A stretch of 35,240 nt of DNA. Source: Clostridiales bacterium. GTDB taxonomy: Bacteria > Bacillota > Clostridia > Oscillospirales > Oscillospiraceae. The DNA lies in the NCBI GenBank assembly GCA_029267755.1, contig JAJUHS010000008.1, positions 1-35,240 on the forward strand. The letters are read 5' to 3'. The position numbers and the translations under genes were made by a program. Shown here in pieces: positions 178 through 9,320 of the stretch; position 1 is the stretch's first letter, and every line of letters starts with the position of its first letter. The notes beneath the pieces are model-generated. The model was not told the DNA's origin and searched no databases. It saw only the letters and a program-made list of their open reading frames with translations.

Positions 178-1320
178 CTAAACCATCTCGGAATAGCTGC
201 CGAGATACTTAAATTCTTCGCACATCCCGTCAAGCTCTGCTATAAGCTGCGGGAAACGCTCGGAATAAACGGGCGTTTCGATGTCAAAGTAGAACATGAA
301 CTCAAAATCCCTGTCAGGCAGCGGACGGCTTTCGAGCTTTACGAGGTTAATACCAAGTGAGTAAAACCTTGAAAGCACCTTGTAAAGCGAACCTGGCTTG
401 TGCGAAATTATCATCATTATGCTCGTTCTGTCGGCACCGGGGTAAATTTCAAGCTCTTTTGAAATACATATAAACCGCGTAAAATTGTTACCTGTGTCCT
501 GAACTGACTCGGCAAGGCATTCGAGTCCGTAAATTCCGGCACAGGCGCGCGAGGAAAGGGCCGCAGCGTCCTTTCTATTCGATTCCGCTACAAGCTTTGC
601 CGCCGCAGCAGTGTTCTCACAGGCAGTGACCTTAACGTTTTTGAGCCCCGCGAGAAACTCCGAGCACTGGTTTATCGCCTGCTCGTGCGAGAAAATCTCC
701 CTAATATCGGCGAGCTTTGTTCCCTTTTTAACCAGCAGATTGTGGTCGACCTTGAGCCTTATGCTCCTTACAATGCTGAAGTTATAGTGCATCATAAGGT
801 CATAGATTTTGTTTACCGAGCCCGCTGTGCTGTTTTCTATCGGCAGCAGGCCGTATCTGCAAAGCCCCTTGTCAATGGCGGCGAAAACCCCATCGAAGCT
901 GTTGAAGTACATTATATTAGGCACCCTGAACAGCTTTTCACAGGCGATCTGCGAATACGCCCCCTCGACGCCCTGGCAGGCTATAAGCGCATGCTCCGGA
1001 AAGACGCAGTCGGTGTCGGATATTGCTCCCCTTATCCTTTCAACAAGTTCATTTGTGGGGTTGATGATCTTTTTCTGATGAAGCCGGCTGAGCTCAAATA
1101 TCAGCGAGTAAAGCACGCTGGTGTAGGACTTCATCCCCTCGGCAGAGCTCTCGTATATTTCGGAAAGCTTCACCCTCTCACGCGCGCTGTCTAAAACCGG
1201 CAGATTGTTCTCCAGCTTATACTTTGCGACTTCCTCGCTTATGTTCATTCTCTGCTCAAAGAGCCTGATAATCTCTCCGTCTATAGCGTCGATTTTCTCC
1301 CTCAAATCCTTTAAATCCAT
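178..1320 (-). CDS. pheA: Bifunctional chorismate mutase / prephenate dehydratase (P-protein)
   Basis: This 380-residue protein should convert chorismate to prephenate and then to phenylpyruvate, the committed branch to phenylalanine. Residues about 1-88 form an AroQ-type chorismate mutase helix bundle (LREKIDAIDGEII). Residues about 105-285 are the dehydratase domain, with the NNFTRF signature near its end. Residues about 295-375 are an ACT domain with ESRP, the usual site of phenylalanine feedback. The start is the ATG at 1320, preceded by GAGGTG at 6-nt spacing; an in-frame GTG at 1329 overlaps that ribosome site and is less likely. The gene begins one base after the aroC stop and is the last gene of the aromatic operon. 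Domain order and length are normal for the family. Confidence 0.96.
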   Translation of the reverse strand: MDLKDLREKIDAIDGEIIRLFEQRMNISEEVAKYKLENNLPVLDSARERVKLSEIYESSAEGMKSYTSVLYSLIFELSRLHQKKIINPTNELVERIRGAISDTDCVFPEHALIACQGVEGAYSQIACEKLFRVPNIMYFNSFDGVFAAIDKGLCRYGLLPIENSTAGSVNKIYDLMMHYNFSIVRSIRLKVDHNLLVKKGTKLADIREIFSHEQAINQCSEFLAGLKNVKVTACENTAAAAKLVAESNRKDAAALSSRACAGIYGLECLAESVQDTGNNFTRFICISKELEIYPGADRTSIMMIISHKPGSLYKVLSRFYSLGINLVKLESRPLPDRDFEFMFYFDIETPVYSERFPQLIAELDGMCEEFKYLGSYSEMV

Positions 1321-1321
1321 T

Positions 1322-2419
1322 TCAAACACCTCTTATCTTATTGTTTTCGAAAATCGCGTCGCAGATTGCTATAGCCGCAGCAGCCTCAACGCAGGGTACA
1401 GCACGGGGCACTATGCAGGGATCGTGCCTGCCCTTTATACTCAGCTTTACGTTTTCCATTTTTGAAAGGCTGACGCTGTCCTGAGTCGTTGCGATTGACG
1501 GCGTCGGCTTGAAAGCCGCCCGGAACACAAGCGGCATGCCCGAGGTAATGCCGCCGAGTATTCCGCCGTGGTTGTTGGTCTTTGTGTGTATTCCGCTGCC
1601 GTCGGTATAAAAGGCGTCATTGTTTTCCGAACCTTTCAGCAAGGCAGAGCCGAAGCCGTTTCCAAATTCTATGCCCTTGACCGCAGGAATCCCAAAAACG
1701 ATCCCCGCAATTCGGTTCTCCATTCCGTCGAACATTGGGTCGCCCAAGCCTGCGGAAAGTCCGATTGCAGCGCACTCCACTACTCCACCGACGGAATCTC
1801 CCGTGGCTCGAGCTTCCTCAATAACTTCCTTCATTTTTTGGCCGCTCGCAAAGTCGATTACGGGGAAATCGTTTTCTCTTAGAGCAAAGAAATCCTCCTC
1901 TGTGACGTTCACCATGTCAAAGTGAGCATCCGATACATTTCCGATACTCGAAATGTGCGCCGCAATCTCTATTCCGTGCCTTTTCAGTAGCTGCAAACAA
2001 ATGCCGCCCGCAATGCAGAGCGGGGCAGTAAGCCTGCCTGAAAAGTGCCCTCCGCCCCTTACGTCCTGCGCGCCTCCGTATTTGACATGCGCGGTAAAGT
2101 CGGCGTGAGCGGGGCGCGGTACGTCAAAAAGCTCGCTGTAATCGGAGGAGCGTATATCCGTATTCCTTATCACCGCAGTGAGCGGCGCGCCGCAGGTAAT
2201 TCCGTTCGCCATTCCCGAAAGAAATTCAGGCATATCCGGCTCCCTGCGCTTTGTGGAATAGGCGTTTTTGCCGGGCGCGCGTCTGTCCAGAAAGCGTTGA
2301 AGCTCCTCAATGTCGATTTCTATCCCTGCAGGAAGCCCCTCTATGCAAACTCCTATTCCCTCCGAGTGGGACTGTCCGAATATCGTTATTCTTATATTTT
2401 TCCCGTATGAAGACGACAT
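1322..2419 (-). CDS. aroC: Chorismate synthase
   Basis: The product (366 residues) makes chorismate from 5-enolpyruvylshikimate-3-phosphate by anti-1,4-elimination of phosphate and needs reduced FMN. Signatures visible are GQSHSEGIGV near the N-terminus, RPAHADFTAHVKYG, and VRGGGHFSGRLTA, the conserved blocks of the family. An open frame extends upstream to 2470, but the ATG at 2419 (MSSSYGKN) matches the usual family start, has GGGAG upstream, and lies 4 bases after the aroA stop, so translational coupling is likely. Fifth enzyme gene of the operon. Confidence 0.96.
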   Translation of the reverse strand: MSSSYGKNIRITIFGQSHSEGIGVCIEGLPAGIEIDIEELQRFLDRRAPGKNAYSTKRREPDMPEFLSGMANGITCGAPLTAVIRNTDIRSSDYSELFDVPRPAHADFTAHVKYGGAQDVRGGGHFSGRLTAPLCIAGGICLQLLKRHGIEIAAHISSIGNVSDAHFDMVNVTEEDFFALRENDFPVIDFASGQKMKEVIEEARATGDSVGGVVECAAIGLSAGLGDPMFDGMENRIAGIVFGIPAVKGIEFGNGFGSALLKGSENNDAFYTDGSGIHTKTNNHGGILGGITSGMPLVFRAAFKPTPSIATTQDSVSLSKMENVKLSIKGRHDPCIVPRAVPCVEAAAAIAICDAIFENNKIRGV

Positions 2420-2423
2420 ACTC

Positions 2424-3692
2424 TCAGTCTCCCTTTTTAACTTTTCCGCCCAGTGACACAAGATCCTCAAAAAAGGCGGGATATGATTTTCTTACCGCCT
2501 CCGCGTTCCTGATACGGACGGGGTTTACGCACCGGGCAGCCGCTATCGCCGCCATCATTGCGATGCGGTGGTCGCCAAAGGCGTCGACCGTGCCGCCGCA
2601 AAGCTCTTCCCCTCCGTTTATTATAAGTCCGTCGGCCGTTTCCTCAATGTCCGCGCCGAGATCGGACAGTGTTTTTGAAACCGTATAAAGCCTGTCGCTC
2701 TCCTTTATTCGAAGGCGGGCGGCGTTCTTTATAACCGTTTTTCCCTTCGCCGCAACTGCAACTGCGGCAATGGCAGGAACCAGGTCCGGTATGTTTTTGG
2801 CATCAACCTCTACACCGCGAAGCTCATTGGGGATAGCGGTTACCGCATCACCGGTTTTTTCAATCTTGGCGCCGAACTCTGAAAGTATTTCCGCGATTTC
2901 TCTGTCGCCCTGAAGTGAATTTATGTTAAGCCCTGTGCATTTAAGTCTGCCCGTTCCCATGGCTGCGGCGCAGAGCCAGAAGGCAGCGTTCGACCAGTCG
3001 CCTTCCACACTTACATTTTCGGGTGAAACATACTTTGCTCCGGGTTTTACGGCGAAGTTTCTATCACCGCCCTCAGCTTTGACTCCGAACGCTTTGAGAG
3101 CATCCAACGTCATCATAATATAGTTTTTCGACTCTGTTTCACCCGTCAGCTCTATTACCCCGCCGTCCGGAATAAGCGACAGAGCGAACAAAAGGCCGCT
3201 CACATACTGGGACGAAACATTCCCAGGGAGAGTGAAGCTGCCGCCCCGAAGCCTGCCCGAGGTCTTAAGCTCCGCCCCGCATGCGTCAAGCATACATCCG
3301 TGCCGGGTGAGTGCTTCGATCAGATCCCTCATCGGCCGCTGCGGAAGCCTTCCTCCCATAAGAAAGGTCGAGTCGGAACCAAGAGCGCAGGCGACGGGGA
3401 GCAAAAACCTCAGCGTCGAGCCGCTCTCACCGCAGTCAAGAACAGCGTTTCTCACCGCATCTGATGGATTTAAAGGCATAACCTCGAAGCCGTCCCAGAC
3501 TCTTTCAATTCTCGCACCTAGTGCGTTTAAGCACCTTACGGTGGCGTCTATGTCCTCGGAGCTCTCCTCGCAGCTTATAAAGGTTTTCTTATCTGACAAC
3601 GAAGAACAGATTAGCAGCCTGTGAGCGCAGGATTTTGAGGCAATAGCCTTTATTGTCCCAGAAAGCATTGAAGGATAGACAATCGCTTCCAT
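2424..3692 (-). CDS. aroA: 3-phosphoshikimate 1-carboxyvinyltransferase (EPSP synthase)
   Basis: The product (422 residues, a normal length) transfers enolpyruvate from PEP to shikimate-3-phosphate. Family blocks seen include GESGSTLRFLLPVA, LPQRPM, GDWSNAAFW and RIKESDR. The N-terminal substrate lysine is in KSCAHRLL. The ATG at 3692 follows the aroB stop with no gap, so the two genes are coupled. Glyphosate class was not assigned from the sequence. The operon lacks shikimate kinase (aroK), shikimate dehydrogenase (aroE) and dehydroquinase, which must lie elsewhere if the pathway is complete. Confidence 0.96.
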   Translation of the reverse strand: MEAIVYPSMLSGTIKAIASKSCAHRLLICSSLSDKKTFISCEESSEDIDATVRCLNALGARIERVWDGFEVMPLNPSDAVRNAVLDCGESGSTLRFLLPVACALGSDSTFLMGGRLPQRPMRDLIEALTRHGCMLDACGAELKTSGRLRGGSFTLPGNVSSQYVSGLLFALSLIPDGGVIELTGETESKNYIMMTLDALKAFGVKAEGGDRNFAVKPGAKYVSPENVSVEGDWSNAAFWLCAAAMGTGRLKCTGLNINSLQGDREIAEILSEFGAKIEKTGDAVTAIPNELRGVEVDAKNIPDLVPAIAAVAVAAKGKTVIKNAARLRIKESDRLYTVSKTLSDLGADIEETADGLIINGGEELCGGTVDAFGDHRIAMMAAIAAARCVNPVRIRNAEAVRKSYPAFFEDLVSLGGKVKKGD

Positions 3693-4754
3693 TCACTCTC
3701 CCCTTTCCAGCCCCAAGGCAATGATTTCCTTTAATTCGCCGAGCTTGGTTTCCCTCAACTCGCACTTCCCTATTTCTCTTGGGATGATCAGCGTGATCTT
3801 ATCACCGCTGCTTTTTTTGTCCGACAGCGCCGCGCTGTATATTTCCTCCGAGCTGAAGCCCGTTTCCGTCGGCAGCGCGTATCTTTTCAGCATCCCGATT
3901 ATCTCGTCGCGGCAGTCCGCCGTACAAAACCCCATTCTGGCGCTTGCCCGGGCTATCAGTGCCATTCCCTCAGCGACGGCATAGCCGTGAGGGGTTTTGT
4001 AGCGGCTGAGCAGCTCAATTGCGTGCCCCGCCGTGTGCCCGAAGTTAAGTATCTGGCGTATGCCGCCGTCGCATTCGTCCTCATTCACGATGTCGCGCTT
4101 TATGGCAACGCAGCGCGTTATTATTTCCTCTATTTTATCGTCCATCGGGAGCTTTAAAAGCTCGAACAACCCCTTATCCCTGATGATGCCGTATTTTATA
4201 ATCTCCGCACAGCCCGCCCGAAAAACATCCTCATCGAGCGTGTAGAGCGTTTTATGGTCGCATAACACAAAGTCCGGCTGAAAAAACGCTCCTGCAAGGT
4301 TTTTCCCGGATTCAAGGTCGATAGCGGTCTTGCCTCCGACTGAGGAATCCACCGCGGCAAGCAGAGTAGTCGGGATCTGAATGAAACGCGTTCCGCGCAT
4401 GTAGGTCGCAGCCGCGAAGCCTGCGATATCCCCCACGACTCCGCCGCCCAGCGCGACTACAACATCCTTGCGCGTAAAGCCGCTTTCGGCAAGAAAGTCC
4501 AGAATTGAGAGATAGTTCGCGGCGTTTTTCGAGCTTTCGCCGTTGGGCATCACAAATTTAATTACCCTGTAACCGGCGTTTATAAGCGAACTCTCTACGT
4601 TCAGATAATATAGCCTTTCGACTATATCGTCGGTTATCACCGCAGCGGTAGCGCCGCCGCAGATATTTCTGGCATACTGCCCGACTTCGCCGAGAATTCC
4701 CGAGCCTATCAGGATATCATAGCTTTTTGAAGCATCCACCCTTACTGTTTCCAT
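3693..4754 (-). CDS. aroB: 3-dehydroquinate synthase
   Basis: The product (353 residues) cyclises DAHP to 3-dehydroquinate using NAD+ and a divalent metal, the second step of the shikimate pathway. The NAD-binding glycine-rich segment GGGVVGDIAGFAA, the block IPTTLLAAVDSSVGGKT, and the metal-ligand region NFGHTAGHAIE are all intact. The start at 4754 overlaps the end of tyrA by 13 bases and the stop abuts the aroA start, so expression is tightly coupled to both neighbours. Confidence 0.96.
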   Translation of the reverse strand: METVRVDASKSYDILIGSGILGEVGQYARNICGGATAAVITDDIVERLYYLNVESSLINAGYRVIKFVMPNGESSKNAANYLSILDFLAESGFTRKDVVVALGGGVVGDIAGFAAATYMRGTRFIQIPTTLLAAVDSSVGGKTAIDLESGKNLAGAFFQPDFVLCDHKTLYTLDEDVFRAGCAEIIKYGIIRDKGLFELLKLPMDDKIEEIITRCVAIKRDIVNEDECDGGIRQILNFGHTAGHAIELLSRYKTPHGYAVAEGMALIARASARMGFCTADCRDEIIGMLKRYALPTETGFSSEEIYSAALSDKKSSGDKITLIIPREIGKCELRETKLGELKEIIALGLERGE

Positions 4755-5584
4755 TTTCCGTCGACCTCCTCCTTGCGGCGTTTGCCGTCAGCGAGAAGCT
4801 GAGCAAGCCTTTTCTCATCTCCCTTTTCGAGCGCGTCGCGGTATTCCTTTACGGAGTTAATAAAAAATTCAAGCTCTTTAAGCAGAAAATCTTTGTTTTC
4901 GATAAAAAGCTCACTCCACATCTCTTCGTTAAGGTAGGCGACTCTCGTAAGGTCCTTGTAGCTTCCCGCCGAAAAGCCCTTATGAGCTTCGGCTGTCGGG
5001 CTTTTGATATAGGCGTTTGAAACGACGTGTGCCATCTGTGACGTAAATGCTATCATCCTGTCGTGCTTTTCGGCCGTCGAAACGGTTATGCGACCGAAGT
5101 TCGCAGGTGCAAGCAGCTTCTTTACTCTGTCAATCAGTGCCATATCGTCAAATTTAGGCGGTACTATTATCATCGAGGCCTTATTGAACATTGAGGCCGT
5201 GCTGTGCTTAAAGCCCGAATACTGCGTACCCGCCATTGGGTGACCGCCGATAAAGGTAAAGCCGTATTCCTCCGCCGCCTTAAAGCCCTCGGTACAGACC
5301 TCGCGCTTTGTTCCGCAGCAGTCCATCACCACAGTTTTCGGGGAAATGAGCGGCGCCTTGGCTTTTATATATTCTATTGCCGCTCTCGGGTATACCGCTA
5401 TAAGAAGAAGGTCGCATTCGCCGATGTTTCCGTCGTCGAGTTCCCCGTCGACTGCCCCCGCGATCTTCGCAAACTCAAGTATGGTATGGTCGGCGTCAAA
5501 GGCGTAAACACTATCCCCCGAGCTCTTGTAAGCCTTTGCGAACGATCCCCCGATAAGTCCCAGTCCTACTATGCCAACTTTCAT
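4742..5584 (-). CDS. tyrA: Prephenate dehydrogenase
   Basis: The product (280 residues) oxidatively decarboxylates prephenate to 4-hydroxyphenylpyruvate, the tyrosine branch. It starts with a Rossmann motif GLGLIGGSF (GxGxxG) and has the catalytic-histidine block GGHPMAGTQYSG. It is a short, monofunctional form: no chorismate mutase domain and no C-terminal ACT domain, so feedback control by tyrosine may rest on DAHP synthase and the attenuator instead (inference). Its ATG overlaps the DAHP synthase stop as ATGA, and its 3' end overlaps aroB by 13 bases. Confidence 0.94.
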   Translation of the reverse strand: MKVGIVGLGLIGGSFAKAYKSSGDSVYAFDADHTILEFAKIAGAVDGELDDGNIGECDLLLIAVYPRAAIEYIKAKAPLISPKTVVMDCCGTKREVCTEGFKAAEEYGFTFIGGHPMAGTQYSGFKHSTASMFNKASMIIVPPKFDDMALIDRVKKLLAPANFGRITVSTAEKHDRMIAFTSQMAHVVSNAYIKSPTAEAHKGFSAGSYKDLTRVAYLNEEMWSELFIENKDFLLKELEFFINSVKEYRDALEKGDEKRLAQLLADGKRRKEEVDGKWKQ

Positions 5585-6585
5585 TCCTTTATTACCTCAA
5601 GTATCTTTCTGACCCTTTTTGCAACGTCGTCAAACTGCTCTGGCGTAAGCGACTGCGGTCCGTCGCAGAGTGCCTTTGAGGGGTCGTTGTGCACCTCTAT
5701 CATAAGCCCGTCGGCTCCCGCGGCGGCGGCAGCCATGGCCATAGGCTTTACCAGCCTTGCCATTCCCGTTGCGTGGCTCGGGTCGACAACTATCGGGAGG
5801 TGCGTTAACTCGCGCAGCATCGGCACAGCCGAAAGGTCGAGGGTATTTCTCGTATAGGTTTCAAAGGTCCTGATTCCGCGCTCGCAGAGTATGACCTTCT
5901 CGTTGCCCCCAGCCATGATATATTCGGCACTCATAAGCAGCTCCTTCAGCGTGTTGGCAAGGCCACGTTTCAGCAGAACCGGCTTATCCAGCTTCCCAAG
6001 CTCCTTCAAAAGCTCAAAGTTCTGCATGTTGCGCGCACCGACCTGAATGATATCTACATTTTCGAAAAGAGGAATGTGGTTTGCGTTCATTATTTCGGTT
6101 ATGATCGGCATTCCGGTCCGTTTTTTCGCTTCGAGAAGAAGCTCGATTCCGTCGGCCTTAAGCCCCTGGAAGTCGTAGGGCGAGGTGCGGGGCTTGAAGG
6201 CGCCGCCGCGCAGAATGGATGCGCCTGAAGCCTTCACTCTCTCCGCCACTTCAAGTATCTGCTCCGGCGATTCGACCGAGCAGGGGCCAGCTATCATCTG
6301 GAAATTCCCGCCGCCGATTTCGAGGTCTCCGATACTGATTACCGAGTCCTCCGGATGAAACTTCCGGTTTGAGCTCTTGAAAGGATCGCTTATTCTTTTT
6401 ACCGATTCGATTATGTCAAGATCTTCAAGCATGTCAACGTCTATCTTGCTCGTGTCGCCTATAAGGCCCAGCACGGTATAAAATTTACCCTCCGAGATAT
6501 GGACGTCAAGCCCCTGCCCCTTGAACCAAGTACAGAGGTTGTCTATCTGCTGCTTTGTGGCCCCCTGCTTTAATACCGCTATCAT
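5581..6585 (-). CDS. aroF: 3-deoxy-7-phosphoheptulonate (DAHP) synthase, type I-beta with N-terminal regulatory domain
   Basis: The product (334 residues) condenses PEP and erythrose-4-phosphate, the entry step of aromatic biosynthesis. Residues about 1-70 form the ferredoxin-like domain seen in the Thermotoga-type enzyme, which in that enzyme mediates Phe/Tyr inhibition. The barrel follows, with MIAGPCSVES, GGAFKPRTSPY, KRGL and VDPSHATG. The start is the ATG at 6585, behind AGGAGG at 7-nt spacing. An in-frame extension to 6633 would begin inside the attenuator terminator stem and is rejected. It is the first enzyme gene after the leader peptide, so all six downstream genes should be controlled by the attenuator. 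The symbol aroF is by function; other names are used for this class. Confidence 0.95.
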   Translation of the reverse strand: MIAVLKQGATKQQIDNLCTWFKGQGLDVHISEGKFYTVLGLIGDTSKIDVDMLEDLDIIESVKRISDPFKSSNRKFHPEDSVISIGDLEIGGGNFQMIAGPCSVESPEQILEVAERVKASGASILRGGAFKPRTSPYDFQGLKADGIELLLEAKKRTGMPIITEIMNANHIPLFENVDIIQVGARNMQNFELLKELGKLDKPVLLKRGLANTLKELLMSAEYIMAGGNEKVILCERGIRTFETYTRNTLDLSAVPMLRELTHLPIVVDPSHATGMARLVKPMAMAAAAAGADGLMIEVHNDPSKALCDGPQSLTPEQFDDVAKRVRKILEVIKE

Positions 6586-6606
6586 AATTATTCCTCCTGT
6601 CAACAA

Positions 6607-6642
6607 ATAATAAAGGCCCCGCAGTGATTTCACTGCGAGGCC
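6607..6642 (-). terminator. Attenuator terminator ahead of DAHP synthase
   Basis: On the minus strand a 12-bp stem with one G-U pair (6642-6631 with 6626-6615, loop AAAT) is followed by TTTATTAT. It lies between the leader-peptide stop (6679) and the DAHP synthase ribosome site. The segment 6631-6623 inside it can instead pair with 6697-6689 of the leader (AGTGATTTC with GAAATCACT, 9 bp, extendable by TGC/GCA across a 2-nt bulge), so terminator and antiterminator exclude each other. Confidence 0.88.
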
Positions 6643-6678
6643 TACGTAAACATGGTTTCTCGGGGTACAATTTACGTT

Positions 6679-6768
6679 TTATGCAGCAGAAATCACTTTT
6701 ACTTTTCGGCTAAAAAAGTAAAAGTAAAAGTAAAAGAAATATGCAGCTGCAGAAAACAATGACTTCAA
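6679..6768 (-). CDS. Phe/Tyr leader peptide of the aromatic operon attenuator
   Basis: A 29-residue open frame begins with TTG at 6768, preceded by GGAGGAG at about 5-nt spacing (6780-6774). Residues 10-19 read YFFYFYFYFF: ten aromatic residues in a row, six Phe and four Tyr, with no Trp. The stop is at 6681-6679. The Tyr/Phe codons (6741-6712) lie 15-40 bases upstream of the antiterminator strand at 6697-6689, while a ribosome at the stop codon would cover that strand. A 12-bp hairpin (6725-6714 with 6706-6695) spans the end of the codon run, as expected for a pause hairpin. The peptide has no expected function beyond ribosome stalling when charged tRNA-Phe or tRNA-Tyr is scarce. Confidence 0.9.
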   Translation of the reverse strand: MKSLFSAAAYFFYFYFYFFSRKVKVISAA

Positions 6769-6798
6769 TTGTACTCCTCCGTTCCTTCATTTTGGCTC

Positions 6799-6827
6799 AT
6801 TATATTATATAATAAATACTTTGTCAA
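6799..6827 (-). promoter_or_regulatory. Consensus promoter of the aromatic operon
   Basis: On the minus strand TTGACA (6827-6822) and TATAAT (6804-6799) are separated by exactly 17 bases, a full housekeeping-sigma consensus. Transcription should start near 6792, about 24 bases before the leader-peptide TTG. No intrinsic terminator was seen between the fabZ stop (6885) and this promoter, so some read-through from the fab operon is possible. Confidence 0.93.
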
Positions 6828-6884
6828 CAGTTTTGAAGCAAAAACTTTATTTCTTTAAATTTCTAAATAATTTTGGACAACAGA

Positions 6885-7301
6885 TTACTTTTTTACCAAC
6901 GCAAACGAAAATTCAGCGCTTACGCATAGCTTTCCGTTTACGAAGCCCTTGCCGCTGGCCCAGTAAAACGGAGCCCTTGACTTTACAATGGTACATTCCG
7001 TTTTAAAAGTATCCCCAACAGTCACGGGATTTTTGAATCTTACGTTGTCAAGACCGGTCAGATAGGTGCCGACCTCGCCTTCTATCTCGGAGGCCAAAAG
7101 CACGCAGGCCGACTGTGCAAGTATCTCGCAGAGAATGACTCCCGGCACCACCGGATTGCCCGGGAAGTGCCCCTTCAAAAACCATTCGTCGCCTGTAATC
7201 GTCTTCTCGCCGTAAGCCACGCCGTCCTTAAGCTCCGCTTTGTCGACAAGCAGCATATTGTCCCTGTGCGGAAGTATGCCCATTATCTCCTCTTTGTTCA
7301 T
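6885..7301 (-). CDS. fabZ: 3-hydroxyacyl-ACP dehydratase FabZ
   Basis: The product (138 residues) dehydrates 3-hydroxyacyl-ACP to trans-2-enoyl-ACP. The hot-dog fold signature is present: the catalytic His in GHFPGNPVVPGV and the catalytic Glu in CEILAQ. It is the last gene of the fatty-acid operon, 12 bases after the fabF stop. No fabA, and no accBCDA genes follow, unlike in many Firmicutes clusters. The 3' side runs into the aro operon promoter without an obvious hairpin terminator. Confidence 0.95.
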   Translation of the reverse strand: MNKEEIMGILPHRDNMLLVDKAELKDGVAYGEKTITGDEWFLKGHFPGNPVVPGVILCEILAQSACVLLASEIEGEVGTYLTGLDNVRFKNPVTVGDTFKTECTIVKSRAPFYWASGKGFVNGKLCVSAEFSFALVKK

Positions 7302-7313
7302 ACGGTTACCCCT

Positions 7314-8540
7314 TTATATCTTTTTGAACGCAAGGCAAGCGTTGTGTCCTCCGAAGCCGAAAGATGTGGAAAGCGCAAGCTCGATATCAGCCTTTACGGC
7401 CTTGTTCGGGGTATAGTTTAGATCGCATTCCTCGTCCGGCTCAAGATAATTGATGGTCGGAGGAATAATGCCGTTTTTAAGCGCAAGTATGGAAGCTATC
7501 GCCTCGACGGCTCCGGCGGCGCCCAGCATGTGTCCCGTCATCGATTTTGTTGAGCTGATATGCAGCTTTTTTGCCATTTCCTCTCCGAAAGCCTGCTTGA
7601 CGGCCAATGTCTCGGTCTTGTCGTTCAGCTTCGTTCCGGTTCCGTGGGCGTTTAAATATATCTTTGAAACGTCCGTTTCGTTTCCGGCAAGCGCCTCGCT
7701 GATTGCCTTCGCGGAGGCCTTGGCCTCCGGATTTGGCGCCGTCATATGATAAGCGTCACAGGTCGAGCCATAGCCGCATACCTCGGCGTATATCTTCGCG
7801 CCTCGCTTAAGCGCATGCTCGTATTCCTCGAGTATCAGAACACCAGCGCCCTCGCCCATTACAAAGCCGTCGCGCCTCTTGTCGAAGGGAACGGACGCTG
7901 CGTTTCTGTCCGTAGCGGGGCTGAGTGTCTGAGCGTTTCCGAAGCCGGCTATTGAAAACGGATTTATCGCCGCCTCGCTTCCGCCGCAGATTATTGCCTT
8001 GGCATAGCCGTGCTTAACCGCCCTGTACGCTTCGCCTATGGAGCTTGATGATGTTGCGCAGGCGGTGGTCACGGAAATGCAGGGGCCCGTCGCGCCATAT
8101 CTGATCGCTATATTGCCCGCCGCGATGTTGCTTATCATTTTGGGAACAAACAGAGGCGACACCTTTCTAACGCCGCCCGCGATAAAGTTTGCGTGCTCAC
8201 TGCAAAAGGTATTGAAGCCGCCGACGCCCGAACCGAAGTAAACGCCAAGGTCTTCGCCGTCAATGCTGTTTTCGAGGCCGCTGTCCTCCATGGCCTCCTG
8301 CGCCGCGTAAAGCGCATACTGCGAGAAAAGATCCATTCTCCTGACAGTATTGCCGTCAAGGCGGCTTGAGGGATCAAAATTCTTTACTTCGGCGGCCATC
8401 TTATATTTAAAAGGGCTGTGGTCGAAGTAGGAAATGAAATCCACTCCGTTTTTGCCGTTAACAAGTCCATCCCAGAACGACTTGACGTCGTTTCCTATGG
8501 GAGTTACCGCACCGAGTCCTGTTATGACTACTCTGCTCAT
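7314..8540 (-). CDS. fabF: Beta-ketoacyl-ACP synthase II
   Basis: The product (408 residues) elongates acyl-ACP with malonyl-ACP by decarboxylative Claisen condensation. The Cys-His-His triad is visible: Cys in VTTACATSS, His in NAHGTGT, and His in KSMTGHMLGAAGA, plus the C-terminal GFGGHNA block. Length is typical. It starts 45 bases after fabG and is followed closely by fabZ. It is the only elongating condensing enzyme in the cluster; fabH supplies initiation. Confidence 0.97.
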   Translation of the reverse strand: MSRVVITGLGAVTPIGNDVKSFWDGLVNGKNGVDFISYFDHSPFKYKMAAEVKNFDPSSRLDGNTVRRMDLFSQYALYAAQEAMEDSGLENSIDGEDLGVYFGSGVGGFNTFCSEHANFIAGGVRKVSPLFVPKMISNIAAGNIAIRYGATGPCISVTTACATSSSSIGEAYRAVKHGYAKAIICGGSEAAINPFSIAGFGNAQTLSPATDRNAASVPFDKRRDGFVMGEGAGVLILEEYEHALKRGAKIYAEVCGYGSTCDAYHMTAPNPEAKASAKAISEALAGNETDVSKIYLNAHGTGTKLNDKTETLAVKQAFGEEMAKKLHISSTKSMTGHMLGAAGAVEAIASILALKNGIIPPTINYLEPDEECDLNYTPNKAVKADIELALSTSFGFGGHNACLAFKKI

Positions 8541-8585
8541 AAAAACCTCTCTTTATGCTGTGATTGGAAATTCAATATATGCCTG

Positions 8586-9320
8586 TTACATTGCGAGCCC
8601 GCCGTCTATGCGGATGACCTCGCCGGTTATATAATCCGATTTTGAAGACGCTAAAAAGAGCGCGAGTTCCGCAACCTCCTCGGGTTTTCCCATTCTCTTT
8701 TGCGGTATGCTTTCGACAAAAGGATTGGTTTCGTCGAAGCCTGCGGTCATATCCGTCTTGATAAAGCCGGGAGCGATGGCGTTGCAGCAAACCCCTCTGG
8801 AGGCCAGCTCCTTTGCGACCGATTTGGTAAAGCCTATCACTCCGGCCTTTGATGCGGAGTAGTTAGCCTGCCCCTGGTTTCCTATAATTCCAGAAATGGA
8901 ACTTATGTTAATTATTTTCCCAGATTTCCGCTTTGCAAAGATCGGGTACACCTGCTTTACGGTATTGAACATACCCTTGAGATTTATATCTATCACTTCG
9001 CCGAAATCCTGCTCCTTCATAGCGAGAAGCAGCTTATCCTTCGTTATTCCCGCGTTGTTTACAAGAATGTCAACGGTGCCGAAATCCTTTACGATCTGCT
9101 TAAATGTATCCGTAACCTCCTGAAAGCTTGCTACGTTGCATTTGTAGGCCTCCGCCCCGACTCCGGCAGACAGGAGCTTTGACTTAAGCTCCTCCGCTTT
9201 CTCCTGATTTCCGGAGTAGATAAATGCGATGGAAGCGCCGTTTTCTGCGAACTTTTCGCAGATTGCGCGCCCGATACCTCTAGAACCGCCCGTTATTACG
9301 GCTACTTTTCCTTTAAGCAT
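8586..9320 (-). CDS. fabG: 3-oxoacyl-ACP reductase
   Basis: The product (244 residues) is a short-chain dehydrogenase that reduces 3-oxoacyl-ACP with NADPH. Visible motifs are the cofactor loop GGSRGIGRA, NNAG, the serine of SISGIIG, the YSASK catalytic pair, and a C-terminal GGLAM. It overlaps the end of fabD by 8 bases, so the two are translationally coupled. Position between fabD and fabF supports the FabG assignment over another SDR function. Confidence 0.96.
   Translation of the reverse strand: MLKGKVAVITGGSRGIGRAICEKFAENGASIAFIYSGNQEKAEELKSKLLSAGVGAEAYKCNVASFQEVTDTFKQIVKDFGTVDILVNNAGITKDKLLLAMKEQDFGEVIDINLKGMFNTVKQVYPIFAKRKSGKIINISSISGIIGNQGQANYSASKAGVIGFTKSVAKELASRGVCCNAIAPGFIKTDMTAGFDETNPFVESIPQKRMGKPEEVAELALFLASSKSDYITGEVIRIDGGLAM

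Follow-up and report, generated by a model that had tools for sequence, protein, structure and literature searches.

A probable tyrosine/phenylalanine leader-peptide attenuator ahead of the aroF-pheA operon in a clostridial genome and its relatives

The window analyzed here, a 35,240-nt stretch of DNA from a Clostridiales bacterium (contig JAJUHS010000008.1), carries on its minus strand a short frame with ten consecutive Tyr/Phe codons ahead of the operon aroF-tyrA-aroB-aroA-aroC-pheA (Table 1), and this element is, with high probability, a ribosome-mediated transcription attenuator of the classical type with a mixed Tyr/Phe sensor. Judged from its sequence, the leader very probably switches the operon on under Tyr/Phe shortage. 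The anatomy of the element, its conservation and covariation, its alternative helices and the agreement between its codons and the genes of the operon are direct results of the computation, and the element is present well beyond one genome, in relatives from the order and the class of the window.

Table 1. Features of the leader element and of the operon behind it, in window coordinates.
Feature	Position	Strand	Basis or remark
Promoter TTGACA-17-TATAAT	6827-6799	-	Pattern scan, 12/12 matches; pattern match, start not mapped
Leader SD GGAGGAG	6780-6774	-	5 nt ahead of TTG; read from sequence
Leader peptide frame MKSLFSAAAYFFYFYFYFFSRKVKVISAA	6679-6768	-	29 codons, from ORF list; aromatic-rich counterparts at orthologous loci
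Leader start TTG	6768-6766	-	Read from sequence
Leader stop TAA	6681-6679	-	Read from sequence
Regulatory codon run YFFYFYFYFF (putative)	6741-6712	-	Ten consecutive Tyr/Phe codons
Segment 1, Tyr/Phe codons	6713-6727	-	15 bp with segment 2 at 6693-6707 (fold)
Segment 2, mostly KVKVISAA codons	6682-6707	-	6697-6683 doubles as antiterminator 5' arm
Antiterminator 3' arm GCAGTGAAATCACT	6623-6636	-	14 bp with 6697-6683, one bulge; overlaps terminator
Intrinsic terminator	6643-6614	-	13 pairs, 9 G-C, then T-rich tail
aroF SD AGGAGG	6593-6598	-	Read from sequence
aroF-like DAHP synthase, first gene	5581-6585	-	ATG 6585; NCBIfam NF006421 494.5 bits (cut-off 335)
tyrA-like prephenate dehydrogenase	4742-5584	-	NCBIfam family-level matches, below curated cut-offs
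aroB	3693-4754	-	TIGR01357 354.8 bits (cut-off 305)
aroA	2424-3692	-	TIGR01356 365.3 bits (cut-off 287.25)
aroC	1322-2470	-	NF003793 398.1 bits (cut-off 321)
pheA-like chorismate mutase/prephenate dehydratase	178-1329	-	NF008865 215.4 bits, just below cut-off 219

The first-pass annotation of this DNA had described the TTG-initiated frame with its GGAGGAG site and aromatic run, and the ORF list and the sequence bear out this description. The promoter that it had called a perfect consensus indeed matches at every position with a 17-nt spacing, the terminator that it had placed between the frame and the DAHP synthase gene was recovered by the scan as a 13-pair hairpin, and NCBIfam agrees with the assignment of DAHP synthase, tyrA and pheA downstream, with the TyrA-like and PheA-like proteins matching the right families below the cut-offs. 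The richest ten-codon stretch ahead of aroF consists of 10 Phe/Tyr codons against a shuffle mean of 3.1, and no stretch this rich arose when the 320 nt ahead of aroF were dinucleotide-shuffled 200 times. Moreover, the RNA from 6790 to 6605 folds at -62.3 kcal/mol (z -6.3), a value reached by none of 200 shuffles. Directly upstream of the leader, NCBIfam matches a FabZ-like dehydratase (slightly below the cut-off), FabF and FabG in positions 6885-9320.

From this anatomy we infer the start site, the translation of the frame, the stalling of the ribosome, the readthrough and the response to either amino acid. In the proposed mechanism, RNA polymerase would initiate near 6792 and a ribosome would translate the leader behind it. 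With both Tyr-tRNA and Phe-tRNA charged, the ribosome would pass the aromatic run and reach the stop codon, and because segment 2 runs up to this codon, a ribosome finishing the peptide would cover that segment, the terminator would form and the operon would be off. Should either charged tRNA be scarce, the ribosome would halt in the run and mask segment 1, segment 2 would be free to pair with positions 6636-6623 before the 3' arm of the terminator exists, and the antiterminator so formed would let the polymerase continue into the six genes from aroF to pheA. An untranslated leader would form the 1:2 helix and then terminate.

These states were compared by folding the window RNA left free by the ribosome, up to just before the 3' arm of the terminator, with an assumed footprint of 15 nt. 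The antiterminator had a probability of 0.04 with no ribosome and of 0.82-0.98 with the ribosomal A-site at five positions of the run; a ribosome placed at the stop codon brought it to 0.00. The antiterminator duplex in the window amounts to -19.0 kcal/mol, and its 3' arm spans the 5' arm, the loop and the 3' arm of the terminator. When the complete terminator was included, it reached 0.99 and the antiterminator 0.00 in every ribosome state; therefore, the model needs a choice made by kinetics, the accepted view for the attenuators of E. coli. A ribosome at the first Tyr codon also left the 1:2 helix at 0.75. Altogether, the window combines a short frame between promoter and terminator, a codon run for the amino acids of the operon, an intrinsic terminator ahead of aroF and an antiterminator that, by computation, competes with both the terminator and the 1:2 helix. 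Attenuation by a leader peptide whose sensor mixes Tyr and Phe, as proposed in the first-pass annotation, is supported by the run, the SD site, the terminator and the covarying antiterminator found at most loci examined.

T-boxes are common in this lineage, with matches at E 0.001 in 60/60 genomes of the relatives search (above the cut-off in 50), and the region ahead of aroF might instead hold a T-box or another riboswitch that senses tRNA or a metabolite directly. At the Rfam gathering threshold, which weaker T-boxes may escape, T-boxes lie ahead of aroF-aroB-aroC-pheA-aroA operons at three of 48 loci (L073, L086, and L217). Another one precedes the trp operon (trpE, trpG, trpD, a trpF-like gene, and a second aroF) of a close relative from the genus of the window, G003 (86.4 bits, below the gathering score, E 1.7e-19), and therefore the Trp and the Phe/Tyr branches are regulated differently in that genome. 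The Rfam scan of the window, however, returned no family match, and the T-box family (RF00230; gathering score 93 bits) is absent even among the 20 hits to E 10 over 6560-6840, which leaves direct sensing by a riboswitch with a next to negligible probability. Membership in the Rfam family Phe_leader (RF01859; gathering score 55) was rejected at 14.1 bits and E 8.4, over 6607-6683 only. Like the E. coli pheA leader (pheL), the window element combines a Phe-codon leader peptide, alternative hairpins and an intrinsic terminator ahead of a Phe biosynthetic gene; unlike pheL and Phe_leader, its run mixes Tyr and Phe and stands ahead of a six-gene shikimate-to-Phe/Tyr operon. TRAP-type control was likewise discarded: in a TRAP target, GAG/UAG triplets recur at regular intervals along the leader RNA, some 7-11 in number, and the sequence between 6790 and 6614 reads as five scattered ones.

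The conservation of the leader was evaluated on 216 loci of DAHP synthase relatives, some of them repeats, made up of the window and 60 loci from its relatives, 80 named loci of the GTDB collection among the matches listed, and 75 further loci from an order sample, a class sample and genomes with two copies. Exclusion of L068, L080, and L228 (less than 150 nt upstream) left 213 loci, which aroF DNA identity reduced to 188 and the removal of L150, whose contig begins inside aroF, to 187; the set is not random because the loci were picked by aroF similarity. DAHP synthase matches occurred in 153/245 genomes of the order sample and 215/291 of the class sample, with upstream regions read for the fetched loci only, and the named relatives among the matches listed are mostly Clostridia and Oscillospiraceae MAGs. 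In the plasmid collection, aroF-like matches turned up in nine records, all with a query coverage below 80%.

A blind search, which took at each locus the short frame with most Phe/Tyr/Trp codons in 14, found at least seven aromatic codons at 116 and at least six at 143 of the 187 loci. The first-pass annotation had made its reading depend on the persistence of the run and of the ribosome-binding site in orthologous operons, and both persist at most loci examined: among 52 non-redundant loci where aroF is followed by tyrA and pheA, 43 reach at least seven aromatic codons in 14 (42 without the suspect frame L099), as do 2.4% of the shuffles serving as control for these loci, and an SD match 4 nt or longer precedes the frame at 117/131 loci (matched control, 0.197). 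Four suspect frames are probably no leaders, namely L099 (apparently the tail of a gene lying upstream), L086 (within a T-box leader), L112, and L152. In the blind frame scan, 7/52 tyrA+pheA loci carried fewer than six aromatic codons in 14; two of these, L107 and L132, have the short runs AYYFYF and AYYFCF, and no run was found at the other five. A conserved frame with an SD site would also suit a small functional protein acting in trans, and a leader peptide that acts in trans, peTrpL, is reported elsewhere (PMC7298713). The length from the chosen start, however, varies from 16 to 54 aa across loci, little beyond the aromatic run and the RNA-pairing codons appears by eye to be shared, and the composition tracks the downstream enzymes, so that we regard a trans-acting protein as extremely unlikely. 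As a separate observation, L123, on a contig of a MAG whose record is titled uncultured Treponema sp., has an aroF 80% identical to that of the window and a Tyr-rich leader; this contig may reflect transfer, mis-binning or mislabelling.

In most cases, the RNA helices required by the attenuator model pair better within a locus than across loci. Among the 143 loci with at least six aromatic codons, a terminator-like hairpin occurs at 140, and the helix tests used the 131 with a hairpin better than -12 kcal/mol located 20-110 nt behind the run, the four suspect frames not being among them. The antiterminator was stronger with the own terminator than with the mean of those of other loci at 120/131 loci (medians -17.6 vs. 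-11.9 kcal/mol), and the 1:2 helix was stronger with its own partner than the mean cross pairing at 118/131 (medians -20.1 vs. -14.0 kcal/mol), the own pairing being no stronger at 11/131 and 13/131 loci, respectively. Besides, the antiterminator exceeded that of a shuffled segment 2 at 116/131 loci. An alignment of 32 loci (35 picked by eye, with L147, L221, and L224 left out) revealed compensatory changes in the antiterminator. Segment 2 holds nine different hexamers in this alignment, and the exact Watson-Crick complement of the hexamer is present in the own terminator at 15/32 loci vs. 2/636 comparisons with terminators of loci carrying another hexamer; for hexamers other than GTGATT, it occurs in the own terminator in 5/13 cases and in the GTGATT loci in 0/247. 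The hexamer test is weaker when G-U pairs are allowed (own 26/32, cross 236/636). In the consensus fold of the same alignment, the terminator shows two-sided changes in 10/12 pairs, and the 1:2 stem is present and varies mostly by one-sided G-U changes, with one two-sided change. A helix between the leader SD and the stretch ahead of the terminator, suggested by the full fold, was stronger with the own partner at 86/131 loci (p 9e-8; medians -9.8 own vs. -8.0 kcal/mol cross), and it was omitted from the model because this support is weak.

Three kinds of operon occur among the loci (tyrA+pheA, pheA without tyrA, and tyrA only), and the codon content of the leader tracks the enzymes of the downstream operon. 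The tyrA-only class comprises 15 loci with at least 5.5 kb downstream, loci cut at about 2.5 kb being left out. Among loci with at least six aromatic codons in 14, the mean Y/(Y+F) was 0.44 for the mixed leaders of tyrA+pheA operons (45 loci), 0.22 for the Phe-rich leaders of pheA-only operons (23 loci) and 0.71 for the Tyr-rich leaders of tyrA-only operons (14 loci), with Mann-Whitney p values, which ignore kinship, of 1.6e-6 (tyrA+pheA vs. pheA-only), 1.1e-4 (tyrA+pheA vs. tyrA-only) and 2.0e-5 (pheA-only vs. tyrA-only). Without the four suspect frames, the means become 0.44, 0.21, and 0.80, in the same order; the corresponding p values, again blind to kinship, are 2.2e-7, 4.0e-7, and 1.9e-6. 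The within-genome comparison is the exception in this respect: in the fetched genomes with one pheA-only and one tyrA-only operon, the tyrA leader was the Tyr-richer one in 13/14 (Wilcoxon p 0.0012), and since four of the paired genomes belong to one genus, a hand count by genus gives 10/11 in agreement (binomial p 0.012). In the pairs of G029, G030, G033, and G046, one member has fewer than six aromatic codons, and the other ten pairs all agree; L065 of the G033 pair was taken as the Phe-type operon, its contig ending before pheA would be seen. The sole contrary pair is that of G029, whose tyrA locus (L085) has no clear leader and is cut at 3.5 kb.

These compositions also bear on whether the frame is a mere by-product of RNA structure. 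In the fold of the window, a TTTTAC repeat pairs with GTAAAA to make up the 1:2 stem, and since TTTTAC in this frame encodes Phe-Tyr, the repeat and its complement could simply be a hairpin that protects the terminator or serves as a pause site. However, the leaders of tyrA-only operons are Tyr-rich without the TTTTAC repeat (GYYYYGGRYYY at L215, GYGYGYYRCYY, NYGYSYYRYY), some leaders of pheA-only operons are Phe-only (NARFFNGFFGFSFF at L208) and the frames are preceded by SD sites, which makes a hairpin with an incidental frame highly improbable. At eight loci with pheA and no tyrA (L066, L070, L071, L198, L200, L202, L204, and L206), the leaders have GWARF(M/T) and then GF in common, a single Trp codon accompanying those for Phe.

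Accounts of aromatic operons in Firmicutes usually invoke T-boxes or TRAP. Aromatic regulation in low-GC Gram-positives was reportedly treated by Panina et al. in 2003. The suggestion of the first-pass annotation that the present arrangement is unusual in a clostridial-type genome needs qualification. Leader-peptide attenuation as such is already known in Firmicutes, where the literature describes his leader peptides in Bacillus, Peptostreptococcaceae, and Erysipelotrichales (PMC2965389, PMC9413887), a leucine-rich attenuator peptide for branched-chain amino acid genes in S. aureus (PMC5794164) and a suggested Phe uORF before aroF, uORFC-13-1, from Acholeplasma and environmental sequences only, with 24 representatives (PMC8632094). 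We found no published report of Tyr/Phe leaders in Clostridia in the open-licence literature, which is no proof of their absence; the available portions of PMC2494555 and PMC10219788 contain nothing on such leaders, and PMC1262725 lists, for other species, phenylalanine attenuators and tyrosine T-boxes. The closest published system that we found is uORFC-13-1, which is likewise a uORF with at least one Phe codon, a possible promoter, an RBS and a terminator ahead of aroF; it differs from the window element in its reported range and in that no Tyr sensor is named for it (PMC8632094). The his attenuators resemble the window element in the proposed mechanism, the phylum and the comparative genomic approach but differ in His codons, his genes and lineages (PMC2965389, PMC9413887), and the S. 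aureus peptide likewise represents leader-peptide control of amino acid synthesis in a Firmicute but concerns the branched-chain pathway in Bacilli (PMC5794164).

It is somewhat more probable than the contrary that these leaders belong to a widespread clostridial regime that we have not found in print, in which the leader would respond to charged Tyr-tRNA and Phe-tRNA in the manner of an OR gate, split Phe and Tyr units would each have a leader matching their own product, the Trp branch would be under a T-box and leaders would serve elsewhere in the lineage too (a pair of Ile/Val/Leu attenuators in series ahead of leuA, and possibly leaders of acyl-CoA ligases that supply amino acid synthesis). 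In many Clostridia, those named being mostly uncultured MAGs, a translated sensor appears to govern the Phe/Tyr pathway and stands beside T-boxes within the same genomes. Because its codons follow the enzymes of the operon, even between two operons of one genome, the leader represents a natural experiment on the change of regulator specificity, and its codons offer a means to read the product of an operon. The record titles of the carriers include the described species Oscillibacter valericigenes, Angelakisella massiliensis, and Bittarella massiliensis, which render the leader testable.

Leader peptides were also observed ahead of other operons. A covariance model of the element matched 32 places in 24/60 relatives at E 0.01, 22 of them ahead of aroF, and among the ten others a leader frame is present at eight (L267-L272, L274, and L275; some read by eye), with none found at L273 and L276. 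In the genome of the window itself, two Ile/Val/Leu-rich leaders lie in series ahead of leuA (L267, G000:C7, 930-1430), MLLSVVSIIILSVILGILVI... followed by MFKRIRMEGIIIILVLVIVLII..., each with an intrinsic terminator behind it, and they are apparent tandem leader-peptide attenuators. Both frames also occur in G001 (L268/L312) and G004 (L269/L317), and the second, the only one sought there, in G002 (L309) and G003 (L321); overall, the leuA leader was found at 5/17 loci scanned (those above the cut-off, of 30 fetched), corresponding to five genomes of the genus of the window. At L272 (G022:C31), a Phe-rich leader, MAYRAFFFNSAFDYCFFNMGNGDLCCEKV, precedes a phenylacetate-CoA ligase-like gene, partial at the contig end, in a genome with no match to the DAHP synthase of the window; that this ligase serves Phe synthesis is a lead from a single case. 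The idea that PaaK-like ligases carry aromatic leaders in general was rejected: of 30 loci fetched, four (L282, L297, L302, and L308) reach six aromatic codons in 14; TIGR02155 (PaaK-like) has matches at E 0.001 in 80/99 genomes, with 0 above the curated cut-off. An Ile-rich leader, MFNYIYGIIIIISIIIIEIIDNADL, stands at L270 (G002:C54) ahead of a 758-aa protein whose C-terminal part matches the acyl-CoA synthetase MbcS below the cut-off. Finally, leaders with Trp, Tyr, and Phe codons precede aroB at L274 (G022:C127; MENKISAAKKYWRRFGFTMTVVRLICDA) and a TrpB-like gene at L275 (G039:C13; MRNVSAKYWRYFNFTFYGFAAGV).
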